Shown: positions 1-9,169 of the stretch, piece by piece | How positions within the stretch are numbered: position 1 is the stretch's first letter | Layout: each line of letters begins with the position of its first letter | NCBI RefSeq assembly: GCF_014206975.1 | Contig: NZ_JACHOU010000001.1 | Location: 248,001-312,000, forward strand | Direction of reading: 5' to 3' | Origin: Aminobacter aganoensis | GTDB lineage: Bacteria > Pseudomonadota > Alphaproteobacteria > Rhizobiales > Rhizobiaceae | Length of the DNA: 64,000 bases | Notes under the pieces: generated by a model | What the model was told of the DNA's origin: nothing | Seen by the model: only the letters and a program-made list of their open reading frames with translations | The model's database searches: none | Program-made: the position numbers and the translations under genes

Positions 1-462
1 CGGGCTCGACTGGCCGAAGTCGGAACCGCGTCCGCCGCCACCGTAGCCGCCGCCACCCTGGCCGCCGCCATAGCCGACCTGGCCGCCACCATAGCCTGCA
101 TCACCGCCCTGGCCGCGTGCGTCGAGCATCTGCAGCTCGCCACGGAATTTCTGCAGCACGATTTCGGTGGTGTAGCGCTCGATGCCGTCCTTTTCCCATT
201 TGCGGGTCTGGAGCTGGCCCTCGATGTAAACCTTCATGCCCTTCTTCAGATATTGCTCGGCGACCTTGGCCAGGTTGTCGTTGAAGATGACGACCTGGTG
301 CCACTCGGTCTTTTCCTTACGCTCGCCCGAGTTCTTGTCGCGCCAGCTTTCCGAGGTCGCGATGCGCAGGTTGACGACCGGCTCGCCCGAATTGAGCCGA
401 CGGATTTCAGGGTCCGCACCCAGATTGCCGACCAGAATGACCTTGTTGACGCTACCTGCCAT
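1..462 (-). CDS. ssb: Single-stranded DNA-binding protein, 3' end cut by window edge
   Basis: Binds and protects single-stranded DNA in replication, recombination and repair. The 154 visible residues open with [19 protein letters not shown] and contain the OB-fold with a WHQVVIF strand and a YIEGQL strand, as in bacterial SSB. After about residue 120 the protein turns into a Gly/Gln/Tyr-rich linker typical of the intrinsically disordered tail. The acidic C-terminal tip that binds partner proteins lies beyond base 1 and is not visible. A perfect LexA box lies 126 bases upstream of the ATG. In rhizobia ssb usually sits divergently beside uvrA; here about 3.5 kb of other genes lie between them. 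Confidence 0.97.
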
Positions 463-587
463 GACACCGCTCCGCGCTCGTCCGAAACCAAATTCCAGGA
501 AAATGTGAGGGCGCACACTAGCCCATTGCACCGTCCGCCCGCGCCCCCTGTGGGCGGAATTCCTCGTGCAGTCCACAAGTCATTTTT

Positions 588-602
588 GTTCCTATTTTGT
601 TC
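588..602. promoter_or_regulatory. SOS (LexA) box upstream of ssb
   Basis: Reads GTTC, seven bases, GTTC, the exact direct-repeat operator known for alphaproteobacterial LexA. It lies 126 bases before the ssb start, so it probably controls ssb. The next gene on the other side is a pseudogene remnant on the minus strand, so no divergent target is evident. Confidence 0.8.
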
Positions 603-725
603 TATAGCGTTTGGCTCGATTTGGCAAGCGGGCCGTGCGGGAAGGAGACCAGCCGCCGTCGATGCCCCGATCGCCCGCCCCTGACCTTGCGGGCAAGCGC
701 GCCGCCCTGGCCCAAGCGTCGCTGG

Positions 726-1020
726 CTATCTCGGGCTCAACGCCCGGCTGCCGCGTGCCAGATATTCGCAGGCCCAGGCCAGGAGGCAGAACACGACCAG
801 CGTCAAAAGCGCCCCAAGGACGACGTCGGAAAAGAAGTGGCGGCCGAATGCGACGCGCAGCATGCTCGCCGTGACGATGATCAACCCGATCGGCAGGATG
901 AGCATCCCCCTGGCCTGCTGCGAGCAGAGCGGCAAGAGACAGGCGAGACAGGCGATGGCGGACGCCTCTCCCGAGACGAAGGAGCAATTTTGCTGGCAGG
1001 CATCTGACGCAGCACTGCAC
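726..1020 (-). pseudogene. C-terminal remnant of a PAP2-family phosphatase
   Basis: The last ~95 codons read as a PAP2 (phosphatidic acid phosphatase/lipid phosphatase) C-terminal half. NCSFVSGEAS matches the second signature motif, and RVAFGRHFFSDVVLG matches the third, with the catalytic His and Asp. Three hydrophobic segments flank these motifs. Upstream of about base 1020 the same frame runs into low-similarity sequence and then the DUF1801 gene, leaving no room for the first signature motif or the N-terminal membrane helices. I therefore call a 5'-truncated gene. The exact breakpoint between 1000 and 1085 is uncertain, and a frameshifted longer copy cannot be ruled out by eye. Confidence 0.65.
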
Positions 1021-1087
1021 GAACTGCCTGCAACCAGTAGACCACCCCTGACGGACCAACGTTCTTGCCGCGCCGCGACCTGCCATT

Positions 1088-1513
1088 CTATGGCCTGAAG
1101 CCGGCTTTCTGCTGGTGATATGTCAGCGCCGCGCGCAGGCAAGATGCGAGAGCAGCCTTCGGAATGGCCGCCTCCGCCGGCACGATCACCGCCCTGTTGC
1201 CTTCGAATTCCAGCTCGCCGCCCACATGCGAGCGGAAGGTCTCGAGAAGCGTCGTATTGCAGTTGAAGAACACCGCGCATTTGCCGGGAAAGGATCTTGC
1301 CACGCCCAGCCTCACGGTCGAGCCGCTGCCGCTGGCCTCCGTCAGGTAAGCCGGCTCGCCCCATTTGAGCGTTTCGGTCAGCGGGCCGACGCCGGCGGTT
1401 TCCGCCGCCACCTCGAAGATCAGGCCGCGGATGTGGAGCAGCCGGGCCTGCACCGCCTCAGGATGGCGCGAAAGCGCCTCGATGATCGTCCTCGGCACGG
1501 GTGGTGGCGCCAT
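1088..1513 (-). CDS. DUF1801-domain protein
   Basis: 141-residue soluble protein. Helical N-terminus (HPEAVQARLLHIRGLIFEVA), a central LKWGEPAYLT segment, and CAVFFNCNTTLLETFR match the DUF1801 (YdhG-like) fold, whose members have no firmly assigned activity but resemble small binding proteins. ATG at 1513 lies 3 bases after the stop of the upstream racemase gene, so the two are almost certainly cotranscribed. Its 3' end abuts the PAP2 remnant, marking a rearrangement junction. Function is not inferable from this context. Confidence 0.8.
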   Translation of the reverse strand: MAPPPVPRTIIEALSRHPEAVQARLLHIRGLIFEVAAETAGVGPLTETLKWGEPAYLTEASGSGSTVRLGVARSFPGKCAVFFNCNTTLLETFRSHVGGELEFEGNRAVIVPAEAAIPKAALASCLRAALTYHQQKAGFRP

Positions 1514-1516
1514 GTG

Positions 1517-2257
1517 TCAGCCCCGATCCTCTTGTGATGCAGATGGCCCGCCGCCAAGCGCCAGGTCGACCGCGGCTTCGGCATGCAGCTTGACCACGTC
1601 ATAGGCAGGCACCGGATAATCCTCCATGGCAAGCAGCAACGGCAGCTCGGTGCAGGCCGAAACCACTGCCCCGGCACCCCGGGCCTGCAGCCCCTTCGCC
1701 AGGTGCAGCAGCACTGCCCTGGACTCCGGCTTCGCCACGCCGAGTGTCAACTCGTCGATGATGATGCGGTGCAACGCCGTGCGCTCGTCCTCAGGCGGCA
1801 CCAGCACCTCGATGCCGAACTGTCTCTCCAGCCTTTCGCCGAAAAAACCCAGCTCCATCGTGTAGCGCGTGCCCAGCAGCCCCACCCGCTTGTGCCCGGC
1901 CGCCTGCAATGTCCGCCCGGCCGGGTCGGCGATGTGCAGAAGCGGGATCCTGATGGCGGCGGCAACCTTGTCGGCAACATAATGCGCCGTCACCGCCGTC
2001 AGCATGGCGAAAGCAGCACCTCCCGCCTCGATATGCCGCGCCGCCGTGATGATCACCTCGGCGACCCGCTCCCACTCCCCCCTGGCGGCAAGGTCGTTCA
2101 ACTCGTCGAAATCGAGCGTGAACATCAGCGACCGCGCATTGTGATGCCCGCCGAGCCGGCGATGCGCGGCCTCGTTGATCAGGCGGTAATAGAGCGCGCT
2201 GGATTCCCAGCTCATGCCCCCGATCAAGCCGATGAGTTGTGTCTGGCGTCCGGCCAC
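1517..2257 (-). CDS. Aspartate/glutamate racemase family protein (YgeA-like)
   Basis: 246 residues, the normal family length. The N-terminus GLIGGMSWESSALYYRLIN and the central HIADPAGR and LLGTRYTME blocks are hallmarks of the YgeA branch, which racemises acidic amino acids without cofactor. The second catalytic motif SACTELP keeps its Cys (residue 202). The first motif reads AMLTAVTAH, placing Thr87 where most racemases have the other catalytic Cys. An unbalanced Thr/Cys pair has been described for the E. coli L-Asp/Glu racemase, where it was linked to one-directional L-to-D activity, so this is probably an active enzyme. Cotranscribed with the DUF1801 gene. Confidence 0.87.
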   Translation of the reverse strand: MAGRQTQLIGLIGGMSWESSALYYRLINEAAHRRLGGHHNARSLMFTLDFDELNDLAARGEWERVAEVIITAARHIEAGGAAFAMLTAVTAHYVADKVAAAIRIPLLHIADPAGRTLQAAGHKRVGLLGTRYTMELGFFGERLERQFGIEVLVPPEDERTALHRIIIDELTLGVAKPESRAVLLHLAKGLQARGAGAVVSACTELPLLLAMEDYPVPAYDVVKLHAEAAVDLALGGGPSASQEDRG

Positions 2258-2547
2258 GTGTCCCCTTCCAAGCCTGCAACTGCCATCGGGCAGAACAATC
2301 TAGTTTTGAGGTCAGCCGAAAACTAAGTCCAACAGCAGGCTGAGACCCCCTCCGTTCGAAAGGTAACTGACGATAACCGTCCGGCGACGGCGAGGCCAGC
2401 GCGGCTTCCAAAGTAAAGGGAGGCAGGATGGGCGTCCAGATAGCCGCCAATTCCCAGTAGTTGTGGGAAGCATCAACGGAGAAGCAGAACATCCTTGCAG
2501 GTATCCGACTGCACACTAGTCTGTCATCACAACAGTGGGCAAAGGAC
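2258..2547. other. Intergenic gap, nothing recognised
   Basis: 290 bases between the divergent racemase and the orphan membrane-protein gene. No coding frame with credible composition, no tRNA and no clear dyad was seen. It must hold the promoters of both flanking genes, but I could not place a convincing -35/-10 pair. Confidence 0.5.
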
Positions 2548-3213
2548 ATGAACCTGCGGAAGATTGCTGATATCGTTGTCCTTATCATCATTGGCTTTTG
2601 CCTTGGTGGCATGTTCTCCGACGTCAGCGCAACCGACCAATACCTCAGCGAATGGCAGACTCTCATTGCTGGCATTCTTGCCGTCGCCGCCGCCGCGTGG
2701 ACCGTTGGTGAAATGCGTCGCAACGACTCCATGCAGCAACAGCGACACGAGGAGTTGATGCTGCTCAATCTACGAGCAGATCGGCTCCGGGCAGAACGAG
2801 CGGCGTTCCCGTATGCCGATAAGTTGGAATATGCTTCCAACATAATCTCCGAGCGAGTAGAACAACTTGGAGCACATAGAGACATCGACATAAATCGCCG
2901 TGTTGCAATCAACATTGCCCAAGCAATGAATTTTATAATCGATTATTTACGCGCTGACGCAATCATTGATGCAAAGCCACTTTTTGGTAGCGCGATGGCC
3001 TTTAGCTTCGAATCTCTCGAAAAGAGAATTGAAATATCTGCGCGCACAACTATCGGCCTATGCGAAACGCTAGCCGAGACCGAAACTGATTTCGGCAAAA
3101 AACTCGAAGAGCACTGGCCTAAAATAGCTCTCAACTCCCTGACGATAGCAAGAAGTTGCAGAGAATTCGCCGTGGAACTGAAACGCCTTGCGGACCACTA
3201 CGGTCCTGATTGA
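2548..3213 (+). CDS. Orphan membrane-anchored helical protein
   Basis: About 221 residues from the ATG at 2548 (AAAGGA lies only 1 base upstream, so the start is uncertain; a TTG at 2461 would add 29 residues). Two hydrophobic helices, roughly residues 5-24 and 35-55, form an N-terminal hairpin. The remaining ~165 residues are charged, helix-forming and rich in Arg/Glu (for example NLRADRLRAERAAF), consistent with a cytosolic helical or coiled-coil domain. I recognise no family. Base composition is visibly richer in A/T than the neighbours, with codons such as ATA and AAT that are rare in this window, suggesting recent acquisition. No partner gene is adjacent. Confidence 0.7.
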   Translation: MNLRKIADIVVLIIIGFCLGGMFSDVSATDQYLSEWQTLIAGILAVAAAAWTVGEMRRNDSMQQQRHEELMLLNLRADRLRAERAAFPYADKLEYASNIISERVEQLGAHRDIDINRRVAINIAQAMNFIIDYLRADAIIDAKPLFGSAMAFSFESLEKRIEISARTTIGLCETLAETETDFGKKLEEHWPKIALNSLTIARSCREFAVELKRLADHYGPD

Positions 3214-3249
3214 TCACTTCACCAGCACTCTTTTGAACGAACCCCGACT

Positions 3250-3289
3250 AAAAAATATGGCCCCGCCGCTCCCAGGAGCGCACGGGGCC
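3250..3289 (-). terminator. Strong rho-independent terminator reading leftward
   Basis: A long stem is formed by GGCCCCG (3259-3265) with CGGGGCC (3283-3289), plus the inner arms CGCTCC and GGAGCG. On the minus strand it is followed by ATATTTTTTAG, a good U-tract. On the plus strand the following bases (TTGTTGT) are weaker. It therefore ends a minus-strand transcript coming from the 3.3-3.7 kb region, and may also serve the convergent gene ending at 3213. Confidence 0.8.
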
Positions 3290-3690
3290 TTGTTGTCGGG
3301 TTGTACCCTTGACTGCCGGGAGTGGTTTACCGGCTTTTCTCTCTCGGACTCATAGTGGCTCGGGGCCACGGATCCGACCATGGTCTCAGATTGTAGGGGA
3401 TCGCCAGATCACGGTTTGCGGGGCGTTTCACAAGGGAAAGCCTGGCACCTGCGCCTGCCGCGGTTCCGTCTTTTTTAGCGGAACCCTTTGGGGCTGTCCG
3501 GTGGAGTCATGCCTAGCTCCTTCGTCAGTTGCGCCAATTGTACACCTGCTGCTCAACTCGCGTGTCTGCGGCGTCTCGCAGACCGACCGTAGCATGGTGA
3601 GGAGCCCTCAAGGAGGCTCGGCCTCAGGCGACTTCAGGAGTTTGCATCCCTGATTCCGCTACGTCAACCACAACATTGTTAGAGGCGAAA
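3290..3690 (-). ncRNA. Candidate structured RNA (no known family)
   Basis: About 400 bases with no credible gene in any frame, followed by the strong leftward terminator. Read on the minus strand it shows several local stems: GGTTCCG/CGGAACC with a 10-base A-rich loop (3463-3486), GTGGC/GCCAC enclosed by TCGGA/TCCGA (near 3344-3377), GCCGG/CCGGC (near 3316-3335), and a GAGGAGCC/GGCT-CCTC stem (near 3598-3624). A tiny 11-codon frame (MTPPDSPKGFR) with a good AAGGAG ribosome site starts near 3511, so a leader peptide or small-peptide gene is an alternative. It does not match tmRNA, RNase P, SRP or 6S RNA features I know. The 5' end is a guess. A degraded gene is also possible. Confidence 0.35.
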
Positions 3691-3733
3691 AATGTGATCG
3701 AAGTCCGGCTTTCGTCCGCCACGTTTCCGGCAT

Positions 3734-3761
3734 GGCTCCTGCCATACCGTTGTCAGGAGCC
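3734..3761. repeat. Inverted repeat beside the uvrA SOS box
   Basis: GGCTCCTG (3734-3741) and CAGGAGCC (3754-3761) are perfect 8-base arms around a 12-base spacer, ending one base before the LexA box. It could be a second operator or a hairpin in a leftward transcript. Confidence 0.45.
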
Positions 3762-3762
3762 C

Positions 3763-3777
3763 GTTCGGCCTTTGTTC
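3763..3777. promoter_or_regulatory. SOS (LexA) box upstream of uvrA
   Basis: GTTC, seven bases, GTTC, exactly the alphaproteobacterial LexA operator, 154 bases before the uvrA start. It supports damage-inducible expression of uvrA. Because ssb has its own copy at 588-602, both genes keep SOS control despite their separation. Confidence 0.82.
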
Positions 3778-3930
3778 TTTTCACTTGCCCCTGCCCGCCA
3801 AAGGCGCTTAAACGCAGGGCGGGGTGTATCGCGCTGCCTCTCGACCGGGCGGCGAAAATACCTACATGAGGGAATGGTCGGGCACACCCGCCACTCCGGG
3901 CAATTCCAGATTTGAGGCGGCGGCGCGGCA

Positions 3931-6852
<2,922 letters not shown>

Positions 6853-6928
6853 CAATCGGCGCGGCGCGCCTTACGGCTTGCGCCAGGGCGAGGTCTCATC
6901 TTGCCTGCCAGCCCAGACGGCGCCGGCC

Positions 6929-7558
6929 TTATGTCGTCTGGGGTCGCCAGGGCTCGTGCTCGTGCGCGAGCCAGACCAGTTCGGGGTCGAGCGCGAGCAC
7001 CCGCAATTGGCCTTCGCTGCGCGGCTCGTCAAGCTCGCCGAACCAGACCGCCACGTCGCCGCCAACGACGACCGGGCGCCCGCCAGTCTCGACCACGACG
7101 ACTTGCATGCCGGCTGTGTGGCCCGGCGCCGGGACAAGCCGGAGCCCGGGAAGCAGCTCGAGTTCGCCGTCGACCGGCACATACTGCACGCCGGGTGCAT
7201 CGACCCACTCACGAATGGGGTATTCGTTCTCATCGCTGTGCGCGTCTTCGAGTTCACGCCGCTGGACGTAGAACGGCTTGCCGGCGAAGAGGTGGTTGCC
7301 GCCGCAATGGTCGGCGTGCAGGTGTGTGTTGATGACGATATCGATGCCGTCGAGGTCGAAGTCCTGCTTGCTCAGTGGATAGAGGCGAGGGTCGAAAGCG
7401 GCGACCACTGCCGGGTGCAGCTCCGTCATGCCGGTGTCGACCAGTATCCGCGCATCGGGATGGTCGATGACGTGCACATAGACCGGCATGCTCTCGCCTT
7501 CGACGCTCAGTTCGGCAACGAGGATTGGCGTGATGGTGATGGAGGCATGGGCGCTCAT
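6929..7558 (-). CDS. MBL-fold metallo-hydrolase (AHL-lactonase-like group)
   Basis: 209-residue metallo-beta-lactamase-fold enzyme. The zinc-binding HxHxDH motif is intact (THLHADHCGG, His79 to His84), followed by His147 in APGHTAGM, Asp168 in GGDV and a C-terminal His (199 or 201). The layout resembles the AttM/AiiB lactonase branch that hydrolyses N-acyl homoserine lactones, but the protein is about 50 residues shorter than characterised lactonases, so substrate assignment stays open. It is convergent with uvrA and stands alone. A perfect palindrome lies about 180 bases upstream of its ATG and may be its operator. Confidence 0.85.
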   Translation of the reverse strand: MSAHASITITPILVAELSVEGESMPVYVHVIDHPDARILVDTGMTELHPAVVAAFDPRLYPLSKQDFDLDGIDIVINTHLHADHCGGNHLFAGKPFYVQRRELEDAHSDENEYPIREWVDAPGVQYVPVDGELELLPGLRLVPAPGHTAGMQVVVVETGGRPVVVGGDVAVWFGELDEPRSEGQLRVLALDPELVWLAHEHEPWRPQTT

Positions 7559-7737
7559 CTTTTCATCTCCTTCGACATTTGCACGCTGCCTGCCAGGCCG
7601 CGCATGTCCGCGATCACCGGCGGGAAAAGAGTGGGCTTGGCGCGCCAGTCATGGTCCATTCCGAACGCGCTTGGCCTGCCACTTTGCTCACGCCGACGCA
7701 AAACTGATTGCATTATAAAACTGGTTTCAGAATAGGA

Positions 7738-7767
7738 TCAAAAATCGCTTTTGCAATCGATTTTTGA
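7738..7767. promoter_or_regulatory. Perfect palindrome in the 7559-7893 gap
   Basis: TCAAAAATCG (7738-7747) and CGATTTTTGA (7758-7767) are perfect 10-base arms with a 10-base spacer. A second dyad overlaps it: GATTGCA at about 7706 and TGCAATC at 7752-7758. The pattern suits a dimeric repressor operator. The only gene downstream within the gap is the minus-strand hydrolase starting at 7558. The rest of this 335-base gap shows no gene. Confidence 0.45.
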
Positions 7768-7893
7768 AGTGCGCATGAACCAGAATCCCCGGCGAGCTCG
7801 ATGCGAGAGGTCGATCGACCGGCATCGCCTTGGCGCGCGAGGAGGCACGATATCGCCGTCGCCGATTCTGGTTGCGCAGCGCCAGGCTCCTGT

Positions 7894-8958
7894 CTACCCC
7901 GCCGTGGCCGCGCGGCGAAACAGCCACAGGCCATATGCGCCTATCAGGCAGGCGATCAGGAACTCGCGAATCTCGGACAATTCGTAGCCATCGGCCATCC
8001 GGTGTCCGCCGAACACGAAGACCAGTTGCGACAGCGGCAAAAGGATCGCCATGGCAAGCCCCGCAACCCGGAACGGCGCCGGCGTCCCCCAAAGGTCGAG
8101 CGCCAGCCTGATACCGATCAGCGTGCCCATGAAGAACCAGAGCTGGTAGGGCACGACGTTCCACTCTTCGAACAGCAACCCGGCCAGCGGCAGGCCGGCG
8201 AGCGCAAACAGCCGTGGCGGAACGAACCCCTCCGCCGTCTTCAGGAGCGGTCCGACATGCGCCGGCCAGGCCATCGGCAGCACGACGAACAACAGGAACG
8301 CAGCCGAGTAATAGGCCGCCTCGAACCGGTAGGTGGCGAAATTGTGCAGGTTCGTTTCGTTCTGGGCGTTGCCTTCGAACATCGGCCCGGCGGTCCAGCC
8401 AACCCAGTGTTGCCCCCACGACATCTCCTCCATCAGGATGAGGAAGACAACCAGGATCAGCGCCGCATGCACGGCCTGGCGCGGCAGACCGAGAACCCGG
8501 GCGCGATCGCCGCGATCGCGCCACGCGGCAGCGCCCAGGGCCGACAATGCAAGCACGAACGCCACTTCGGTCAGGATGCTGAGCACCTGTCCCTCCCGCA
8601 CCGTCTCGTTCAGGATCCTGGGCATCACCGCCACCGTCGCCGTGGCAACCAGCAGGGCAGCGGCCATCAGATACGCCGCCCCGAGCAGCAGCGGCGCCTG
8701 GCCGTCGATCAGCGGCCGTGCCAGGGCCGGCTTCGGCAGCAGTGCCGCAACCAGCAGGAAGGCCGAGACGAATGCCGCGACCGGCCGGACCAGCCCGAAC
8801 ATCGACCAGTCGACGCGATCCTTGGCCAGCAGGTCGCGGTCGTTGATCGCAAGATCATAAGCGACCAGCGAAACTAGAATCGTAGCCGCCGCGGCGATCA
8901 GCCCCATGCGCGCCGGTCCAGCCAAGGAATGAGCTTGCGGTTGCTGCAGCGTCGACAT
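7894..8958 (-). CDS. Multipass membrane protein of unknown function
   Basis: 354 residues with about nine hydrophobic segments spread along the whole chain, for example near residues 17-37, 58-78, 88-110, 123-143 and 160-178, so an integral inner-membrane protein. In the middle it carries EEMSWGQHWVGW followed by NAQNETNLHNF. I recall this Glu-Glu/Trp-Gly-Gln plus Asn-Glu-Asn-Leu-His pattern from other uncharacterised bacterial membrane proteins; conserved polar residues between helices could be a catalytic or metal site, which is inference. It has no operon partner. Start at the ATG with STLQQPQ; an internal ATG about 17 codons later is also possible. Confidence 0.75.
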   Translation of the reverse strand: MSTLQQPQAHSLAGPARMGLIAAAATILVSLVAYDLAINDRDLLAKDRVDWSMFGLVRPVAAFVSAFLLVAALLPKPALARPLIDGQAPLLLGAAYLMAAALLVATATVAVMPRILNETVREGQVLSILTEVAFVLALSALGAAAWRDRGDRARVLGLPRQAVHAALILVVFLILMEEMSWGQHWVGWTAGPMFEGNAQNETNLHNFATYRFEAAYYSAAFLLFVVLPMAWPAHVGPLLKTAEGFVPPRLFALAGLPLAGLLFEEWNVVPYQLWFFMGTLIGIRLALDLWGTPAPFRVAGLAMAILLPLSQLVFVFGGHRMADGYELSEIREFLIACLIGAYGLWLFRRAATAG

Positions 8959-9169
8959 GAACGGCCCGTCATTATGTTTGCGTTTGTATGAGATGTTCTA
9001 GCCGACGACTGTCGAACAAAGTGTAAAGCGGGCTACCGTCGGCGGGCGCGGCCGAACCCTGCCGAGCACGGCTTCATGTCAGTATGGTTCCGGCAGCCCG
9101 CCTTGGCGGCTTTGCCGCTCCGGCCTGTTCGGCTAGAAATGACGCGCAATGACATCAAGGGGTTGAGCG

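Follow-up and report, generated by a model that had tools for sequence, protein, structure and literature searches.

The minus strand between an orphan gene and uvrA, in the window analysed here (the whole 64,000-nt stretch of Aminobacter aganoensis DNA), appears to carry a stand-alone gene of about 380 nt for a structured RNA with its own predicted promoter and terminator. Both the predicted fold of this RNA and the putative initiation of translation on M-x-P-P-[D/E/N], the start of a very short open reading frame within it, are well supported by comparison of related genomes, and the diproline motif, which lies beside a hairpin, is among the best-conserved stretches of the RNA. The reading that we favour, to which we would give a little less than an even chance, is that of a new RNA family, judged against Rfam 15, whose fold or fate would depend on ribosome pausing at the early diproline motif. 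An earlier note on this DNA had proposed a structured RNA or a leader-peptide transcript, and both halves of that proposal hold jointly, in the form of covarying helices and a codon-conserved short frame. Thus, the structured RNA and the short translated frame are supported, whereas the word "leader" is doubtful, since the downstream gene is not conserved. The parts of the unit and its uvrA side are the following:

3931 to 6852, plus strand: open reading frame that we take to be uvrA, the divergent conserved neighbour
3763 to 3777, plus strand: GTTC-N7-GTTC box, presumably LexA-like, on the uvrA side of the intergenic region and overlapping the likely uvrA promoter
3689 to 3700, minus strand: conserved box CGATCACATTTT, about 21 nt upstream of the -35-like hexamer
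3662 to 3667, minus strand: -35-like hexamer TTGACG, also kept in the cross-genus alignment
3639 to 3644, minus strand: -10-like hexamer CAAACT (cross-genus consensus CAGACT), giving TTGACG-N17-CAAACT in the window
3250 to 3632, minus strand: predicted RNA gene of about 380 nt, its ends predicted from promoter and terminator, kept in 10/10 genomes of the genus
3563 to 3584, minus strand: H1, hairpin of the 5' untranslated region with loop region GCGAGACGCCGC, from its loop motif and covariation
3517 to 3522, minus strand: Shine-Dalgarno sequence AAGGAG, 6 nt 5' of the ATG
3475 to 3510, minus strand: short open reading frame MTPPDSPKGFR plus stop, 11 codons, ATG at 3510, its conserved portion being M-x-P-P-[D/E/N]
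3462 to 3485, minus strand: H2, GGTTCCG/CGGAACC hairpin, overlapping the end of the frame and beginning at its nt 26
3383 to 3394, minus strand: unpaired conserved motif ACAATCTGAGAC, with the cross-genus form ACAATCAGAGAC
3344 to 3377, minus strand: H4, two-part helix TCGGAT..ATCCGA plus inner stem, from covariation
3315 to 3334, minus strand: H5, GCCGG..CCGGC hairpin, from covariation
3298 to 3308, minus strand: H6, small GGGTACAACCC hairpin, from sequence and predicted fold
3250 to 3291, minus strand: intrinsic terminator, strong hairpin and T-run ATATTTTTT, from sequence and fold

The elements singled out in the earlier note were recovered. The minus-strand terminator hairpin lies at 3291-3250, the local stems GGTTCCG/CGGAACC, nested TCGGA...TCCGA and GCCGG/CCGGC are present as described and correspond to H2, H4 and H5, and the 11-codon frame placed near 3511 starts with the ATG at 3510, preceded by AAGGAG at 3522-3517. 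A terminator scan of positions 1-9000 gave 10 sites versus 7.1 expected. The length of the predicted RNA was 379-386 nt in the 8 loci, out of 12 tried, in which both ends could be called, and the minimal open reading frame begins about 120 nt from the predicted RNA start. The absence of a credible protein gene, also claimed there, was borne out: none of the six open reading frames scanned in the stretch had a credible Pfam match (best E 0.21, below the cut-off), and relatives show single-base insertions and deletions, so that a protein gene on either strand was rejected. Likewise, homologues revealed neither a decayed protein gene nor an Rfam family. The failure to match tmRNA, RNase P, SRP or 6S RNA agrees with the search suggested at the time, as no Rfam 15 family matched anywhere in the window at gathering thresholds (the best hit within 2500-4500 had E 3, far below threshold) and no match with E<=0.1 was found in ten relatives; the tmRNA of this genome is a separate locus.

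The 531-base minus-strand stretch was present in 10/10 Aminobacter genomes, with 84-89% identity in the nine others, and beyond Aminobacter only one further match was detected among 61 genomes, namely a core of 55 bases surrounding the frame, in a different genus. A 24-base core pattern, allowing up to three mismatches, identified the element in 63 of 297 family genomes and 30 of 109 genera, with none for the reversed control. Because these first loci came from a DNA pattern, the frame was tested separately with a covariance model (R1) of 85 positions that covers the 3' domain alone and begins about 90-110 nt past the ATG. R1 gave 69 matches in the 297 family genomes, 68 of them credible; a match in G250 (E 6.7e-4), coding-looking by eye and lacking a frame, uvrA and ssb in the DNA retrieved, was attributed to chance and excluded from the counts. 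Altogether, 81 of the 297 sampled genomes were positive by pattern or 3'-domain model. In one genus (g97), most likely Mesorhizobium, the RNA was present in 144 of 146 genomes. The region upstream of uvrA was also inspected in 79 pattern-negative family genomes, each from a different genus, although some few of the genera have matches in other species: an M-x-P-P frame occurred within 900 nt in 17 and was absent in 62, and in 55 of the latter ssb begins 197-436 nt from uvrA. Among 397 genomes of the order, the RNA was detected only in the family Rhizobiaceae, save for one marginal match (L186, model E 3.3e-4), judged to be chance because neither a frame nor uvrA lies nearby. No homologue was found in phages or plasmids by blastn at E<=1e-5.

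All 68 credible R1 loci carry an M-x-P-P frame upstream of the modelled domain, reading PPD in 64, PPE in 2 and PPN in 2 (G071 and G091, both MTPPN). Fifty of these loci had already been found by the pattern and 6 by the scan upstream of uvrA, whereas 12 were new. A ribosome-binding site (GGAG, AGGA or GAGG within 14 nt 5') was detected by script in 66 of the 68 and by eye in the other two. In 40 distinct sequences, 39 of 160 third-position cells of codons 2-5 were off consensus versus 5 of 320 first- and second-position cells, a comparison in which the positions of Pro-Pro-G.. were fixed by the demand of the script, which only the two PPN loci fail; all five first- and second-position changes fall in codon 2, altered in 5/40 distinct sequences. 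Past residue 6 neither sequence nor length is retained, the frame ranging from 6 to 39 aa. These third-position changes, together with the lack of retention after residue 6, suggest that the translated start is kept for its pause motif and not for the peptide made. Pairing with the Shine-Dalgarno sequence was rejected as the main reason for the conservation of codons 2-3, as CTCC is present in only 37 of 70 distinct sequences. The motif found in 68/68 model loci, PPD, PPE or PPN, is of the pausing kind: all three are listed among pauses in the available text of PMC4140641, where, for E. coli, PPD and PPN occur only among the pausing PPX motifs, and PPQ and PPK in both sets.

The reverse relation is looser: at E<=0.001, R1 failed to match 13 of the 63 loci given by the pattern, as well as 11 of the 17 frames from the upstream scan, the 3' domain being either diverged or missing there. 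Four frames without R1 match read PPK or PPQ (L092, L097, L099 and L120). Very short frames of 5-8 residues, such as MTPPDRFS, MSPPDYA and MSPPD, were observed in L017-L020 (genus g84), L089 and L108; except for L018, these loci have no match to the 3'-domain model and perhaps represent a minimal form of the element.

The earlier note had also called for a search for covarying stems, and covariation was found in three separate regions. Single-sequence folding gave a modest z of -2.2. In the 3' domain (H4, inner stem and H5), 49 cells had changed on both sides in 43 sequences, versus a shuffled mean of 10.9; the corresponding values were 43 versus 10.6 for H2 (63 sequences) and 30 versus 9.5 for H1 (34 distinct sequences), and in each case 0/500 shuffles reached the observed number. 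Weaker measures discriminated less: the number of pairs with both-sided change was equalled by 34/500 shuffles for H2 and 119/500 for H1, and the number of further pair types in the 3' domain by 12/500. These shuffles ignore relatedness, which is retained when partners are slid by 1-3 columns, and such sliding reduced every covariation measure. The outer helix of H4 is 100% paired in the 43 sequences, with both-sided changes at 3 of 6 pairs, and H5 is paired in 91.6% of cells, with both-sided change at 4 of 5 pairs. The rows were chosen, 76 representatives being reduced to 52 in the 3'-domain alignment and to 43 in the final one, and the unguided consensus of the 52-row alignment already yields H4 and H5, 12 of whose 13 pairs show both-sided changes; the H2 alignment comprises 63 of the 76 representatives. 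As for H1, its loop motif is recognisable in 47 of 83 loci; since this motif also served to choose the rows, selection fixes the three inner pairs, and the stem is tested by the four outer ones alone. Relative to the frame, H2 starts at nt 25 or 26 in 70 of the 81 distinct sequences. By the toeprint rule, a ribosome with Pro4 in the P site covers the mRNA to about nt 25, which would place H2 at the leading edge of a ribosome paused at Pro4.

The signals of an independent transcription unit recur across relatives. In a set of 83 loci (24 of them without R1 match and 5, from other Aminobacter, outside the sample searched with R1), TTGACN-N16..18-NANNNT was found in 76, with a spacer of 17 in 61, versus 1/83 after shuffling, and a terminator-like site lies at +170..+320 from the ATG in 66, versus 8/83 after shuffling. 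Thus, the independent transcription expected of a dual-function small RNA is indicated comparatively, by a promoter-like pair and a terminator-like site. The upstream box reads GATCACA in 49/83 loci and GATCAC in 61/83, with 0 for the reverse-letter control. The location of the box CGATCACATTTT in the window, upstream of the RNA promoter, would suit the binding of an activator.

The genes around the element are conserved on one side only. A UvrA homologue lies divergently upstream in 72 of 78 rows (some genomes appearing twice) and in 12/12 newly found frame loci. The six pattern loci with no UvrA in the fetched DNA are L030, L032, L063, L067, L069 and L070, four of which have ssb downstream. 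GAAC-N7-GAAC was found in 60 of the 78 loci, and because the LexA-like box recurs in this way uvrA is probably under SOS control here. Control of the RNA promoter by LexA was considered and discarded: the box lies about 95 nt upstream of the -35, which makes it no obvious operator of this promoter, and it more likely belongs to uvrA. On the downstream side, 54/83 loci have ssb on the same strand, at a distance of 353-1297 nt, and the DNA fetched for the remaining 29 showed no ssb; a Clp protease gene (PF00574) lies downstream, on the opposite strand, in 15 of the 16 g97 genomes examined; and in the window the RNA is followed by an opposite-strand orphan gene and then an Asp/Glu racemase gene. 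Since the downstream genes vary, the RNA looks like a stand-alone unit, independent of ssb and no leader of it. The orphan gene between racemase and RNA (2461-3213, plus strand) encodes an N-terminal hydrophobic stretch and has only sub-threshold Pfam matches (DUF7437, SdpI). L013 (IMGVR_UViG_2914426642_000001) is a 20-kb contig in a viral collection that encodes a full-length UvrA relative with 69% identity, being either phage-borne or host DNA.

Other readings of the unit have to be weighed against a fold or fate set by pausing. It may be a dual-function base-pairing small RNA, in which the 3' domain acts on mRNAs in trans and the frame only sets RNA stability or start-site occupancy, with pausing as an incidental feature. 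We regard this as unlikely, even if the own promoter and terminator, the lack of a fixed downstream gene and the conserved unpaired motif would all suit such an RNA. However, the coding part PP[D/E/N] ranks with the best-conserved stretches of the RNA and its amino acids are retained, and a recurring antisense target of the unpaired motif was not found in 14 genomes: the 11-nt complement of CAATCAGAGAC gave 14 sites, of which 11 were the locus of the RNA itself and the other 3 were mutually unrelated. That the peptide is itself the product, as a small effector or signal, seems decidedly improbable; the amino-acid conservation of M-x-P-P-[D/E] argues for it, but only about five residues are kept in a length of 6-39 aa, and such coding similarity as exists further on (EPRQA-like ends) falls on the 3' strand of H2 and beyond.

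A leader-peptide attenuator, in which pausing or drop-off on the frame governs terminator read-through into a downstream gene, originally ssb, would account for the terminator 3' of the frame, for the same-strand ssb in 54/83 loci and for the early Pro/acidic motif (M-x-P-P-[D/E/N] in 68/68 model loci, acidic in 66), and mgtL offers a precedent in the available text of PMC11282234. Its weakness is the target: a conserved same-strand gene is absent, the next gene in the window being on the opposite strand; the distance to ssb reaches 1297 nt, and 29/83 loci showed no ssb in the DNA fetched; in g97 the RNA is kept in 144/146 genomes, yet the Clp protease gene is on the opposite strand in 15/16; and no alternative antiterminator was identified. 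We thus hold attenuation to be distinctly unlikely. Conserved regulatory DNA of uvrA, or an unrecognised known RNA, with no functional minus-strand transcript, is scarcely credible: the LexA-like box nearby in 60/78 loci fits it, but the helix covariation, the codon pattern, the minus-strand promoter-terminator pair and the lack of an Rfam match do not.

Under the favoured reading, that of an RNA dependent on pausing, a mechanism can be outlined. A ribosome initiating at AAGGAG would make Met-x-Pro-Pro and pause before Asp, Glu or Asn, stopping just short of H2. In this paused state, H2 and the 3' domain (ACAAUCAGAGAC, H4 and H5) would be formed and the ribosome-binding region covered. Relief of the pause by EF-P, and possibly EttA, would let the ribosome enter H2, and the RNA would then change its fold, stability or partner. 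The RNA may thereby report the efficiency with which early diproline pauses are relieved, with action in trans suggested by the lack of a conserved downstream gene. A trans-acting translation sensor of this kind, that is, a free-standing RNA that catches a ribosome on a five-codon diproline pause beside a hairpin, and in which EF-P/EttA state or ribosome supply sets fold and activity without involvement of a downstream gene, is a tentative proposal that we consider on balance doubtful. To our knowledge, pausing frames mostly precede the gene that they control. If true, a free-standing RNA with a pause motif beside a hairpin would represent a different use of ribosome pausing.

Partial precedents exist. 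In MgtL, the mgtA leader peptide of enterobacteria, according to the available text of PMC11282234, EPDP is an early destabilising motif, translation of the Pro/acidic leader frame controls RNA conformation and mgtA transcription, and EttA acts on MgtL, whose translation alters RNA conformation. The two are alike in their very short frame with prolines and an acidic residue within the first five codons; however, MgtL precedes mgtA and controls Rho-dependent termination, whereas the RNA described here has an intrinsic terminator and no conserved downstream gene. The cyanobacterial yfr6/Downstream-peptide RNAs, of about 250 nt, were first predicted to be noncoding, and their short frame is supported by synonymous changes (PMC2864571, available text); they belong to another phylum and their conserved RNA part is the 5' untranslated region, whereas here conserved structure flanks the frame on both sides. 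Alpha_tmRNA (RF01849) is likewise structured, has a comparable length and contains an internal frame, but the frame found here has its own Shine-Dalgarno sequence and start codon. For the Rhizobiales-1 motif, the table of Weinberg et al. (2010; PMC2864571) gives no Rfam accession. In the literature, mostly outside subscription papers and without supplements, no description of the frame or of a uvrA-ssb RNA in these bacteria was found, and the words "uvrA" and "ssb" are absent from the main text of the rhizobial small RNA papers PMC2245857, PMC2573895 and PMC3927594.

One published transcript may well be the same RNA gene, judging from its map position and strand. MH_s13 of Mesorhizobium huakuii 7653R is an unannotated 366-nt RNA-seq transcript of unknown function at 2051956-2052321 (+), in a genome with RNase P at 3136500 (-) and speF at 4347901 (-) (PMC5596092, available passages). 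Among 14 g97 genomes, five (G247, G690, G753, G757 and G795) have RNase P and speF on one strand and the RNA on the other, at a distance of 0.79-1.10 Mb from RNase P; in the remaining nine, all three share a strand. MH_s13, 1.08 Mb from RNase P, fits the opposite-strand layout, and its left neighbour (-) would fit uvrA, whereas its right neighbour (+) does not fit the Clp protease gene, both neighbours being given in that source as locus tags only. No open reading frame is described for MH_s13 in section 5/Table 1 or the available passages of PMC5596092. Two further transcripts of the same source, MH_s25 and MH_s39, were compared by strand and size and dismissed on map position.

The element offers a compact testable object, consisting of five codons and one hairpin, that is missing from Rfam and is found in a group including nitrogen-fixing bacteria. 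The hosts of the Aminobacter-Mesorhizobium group are soil and root bacteria.
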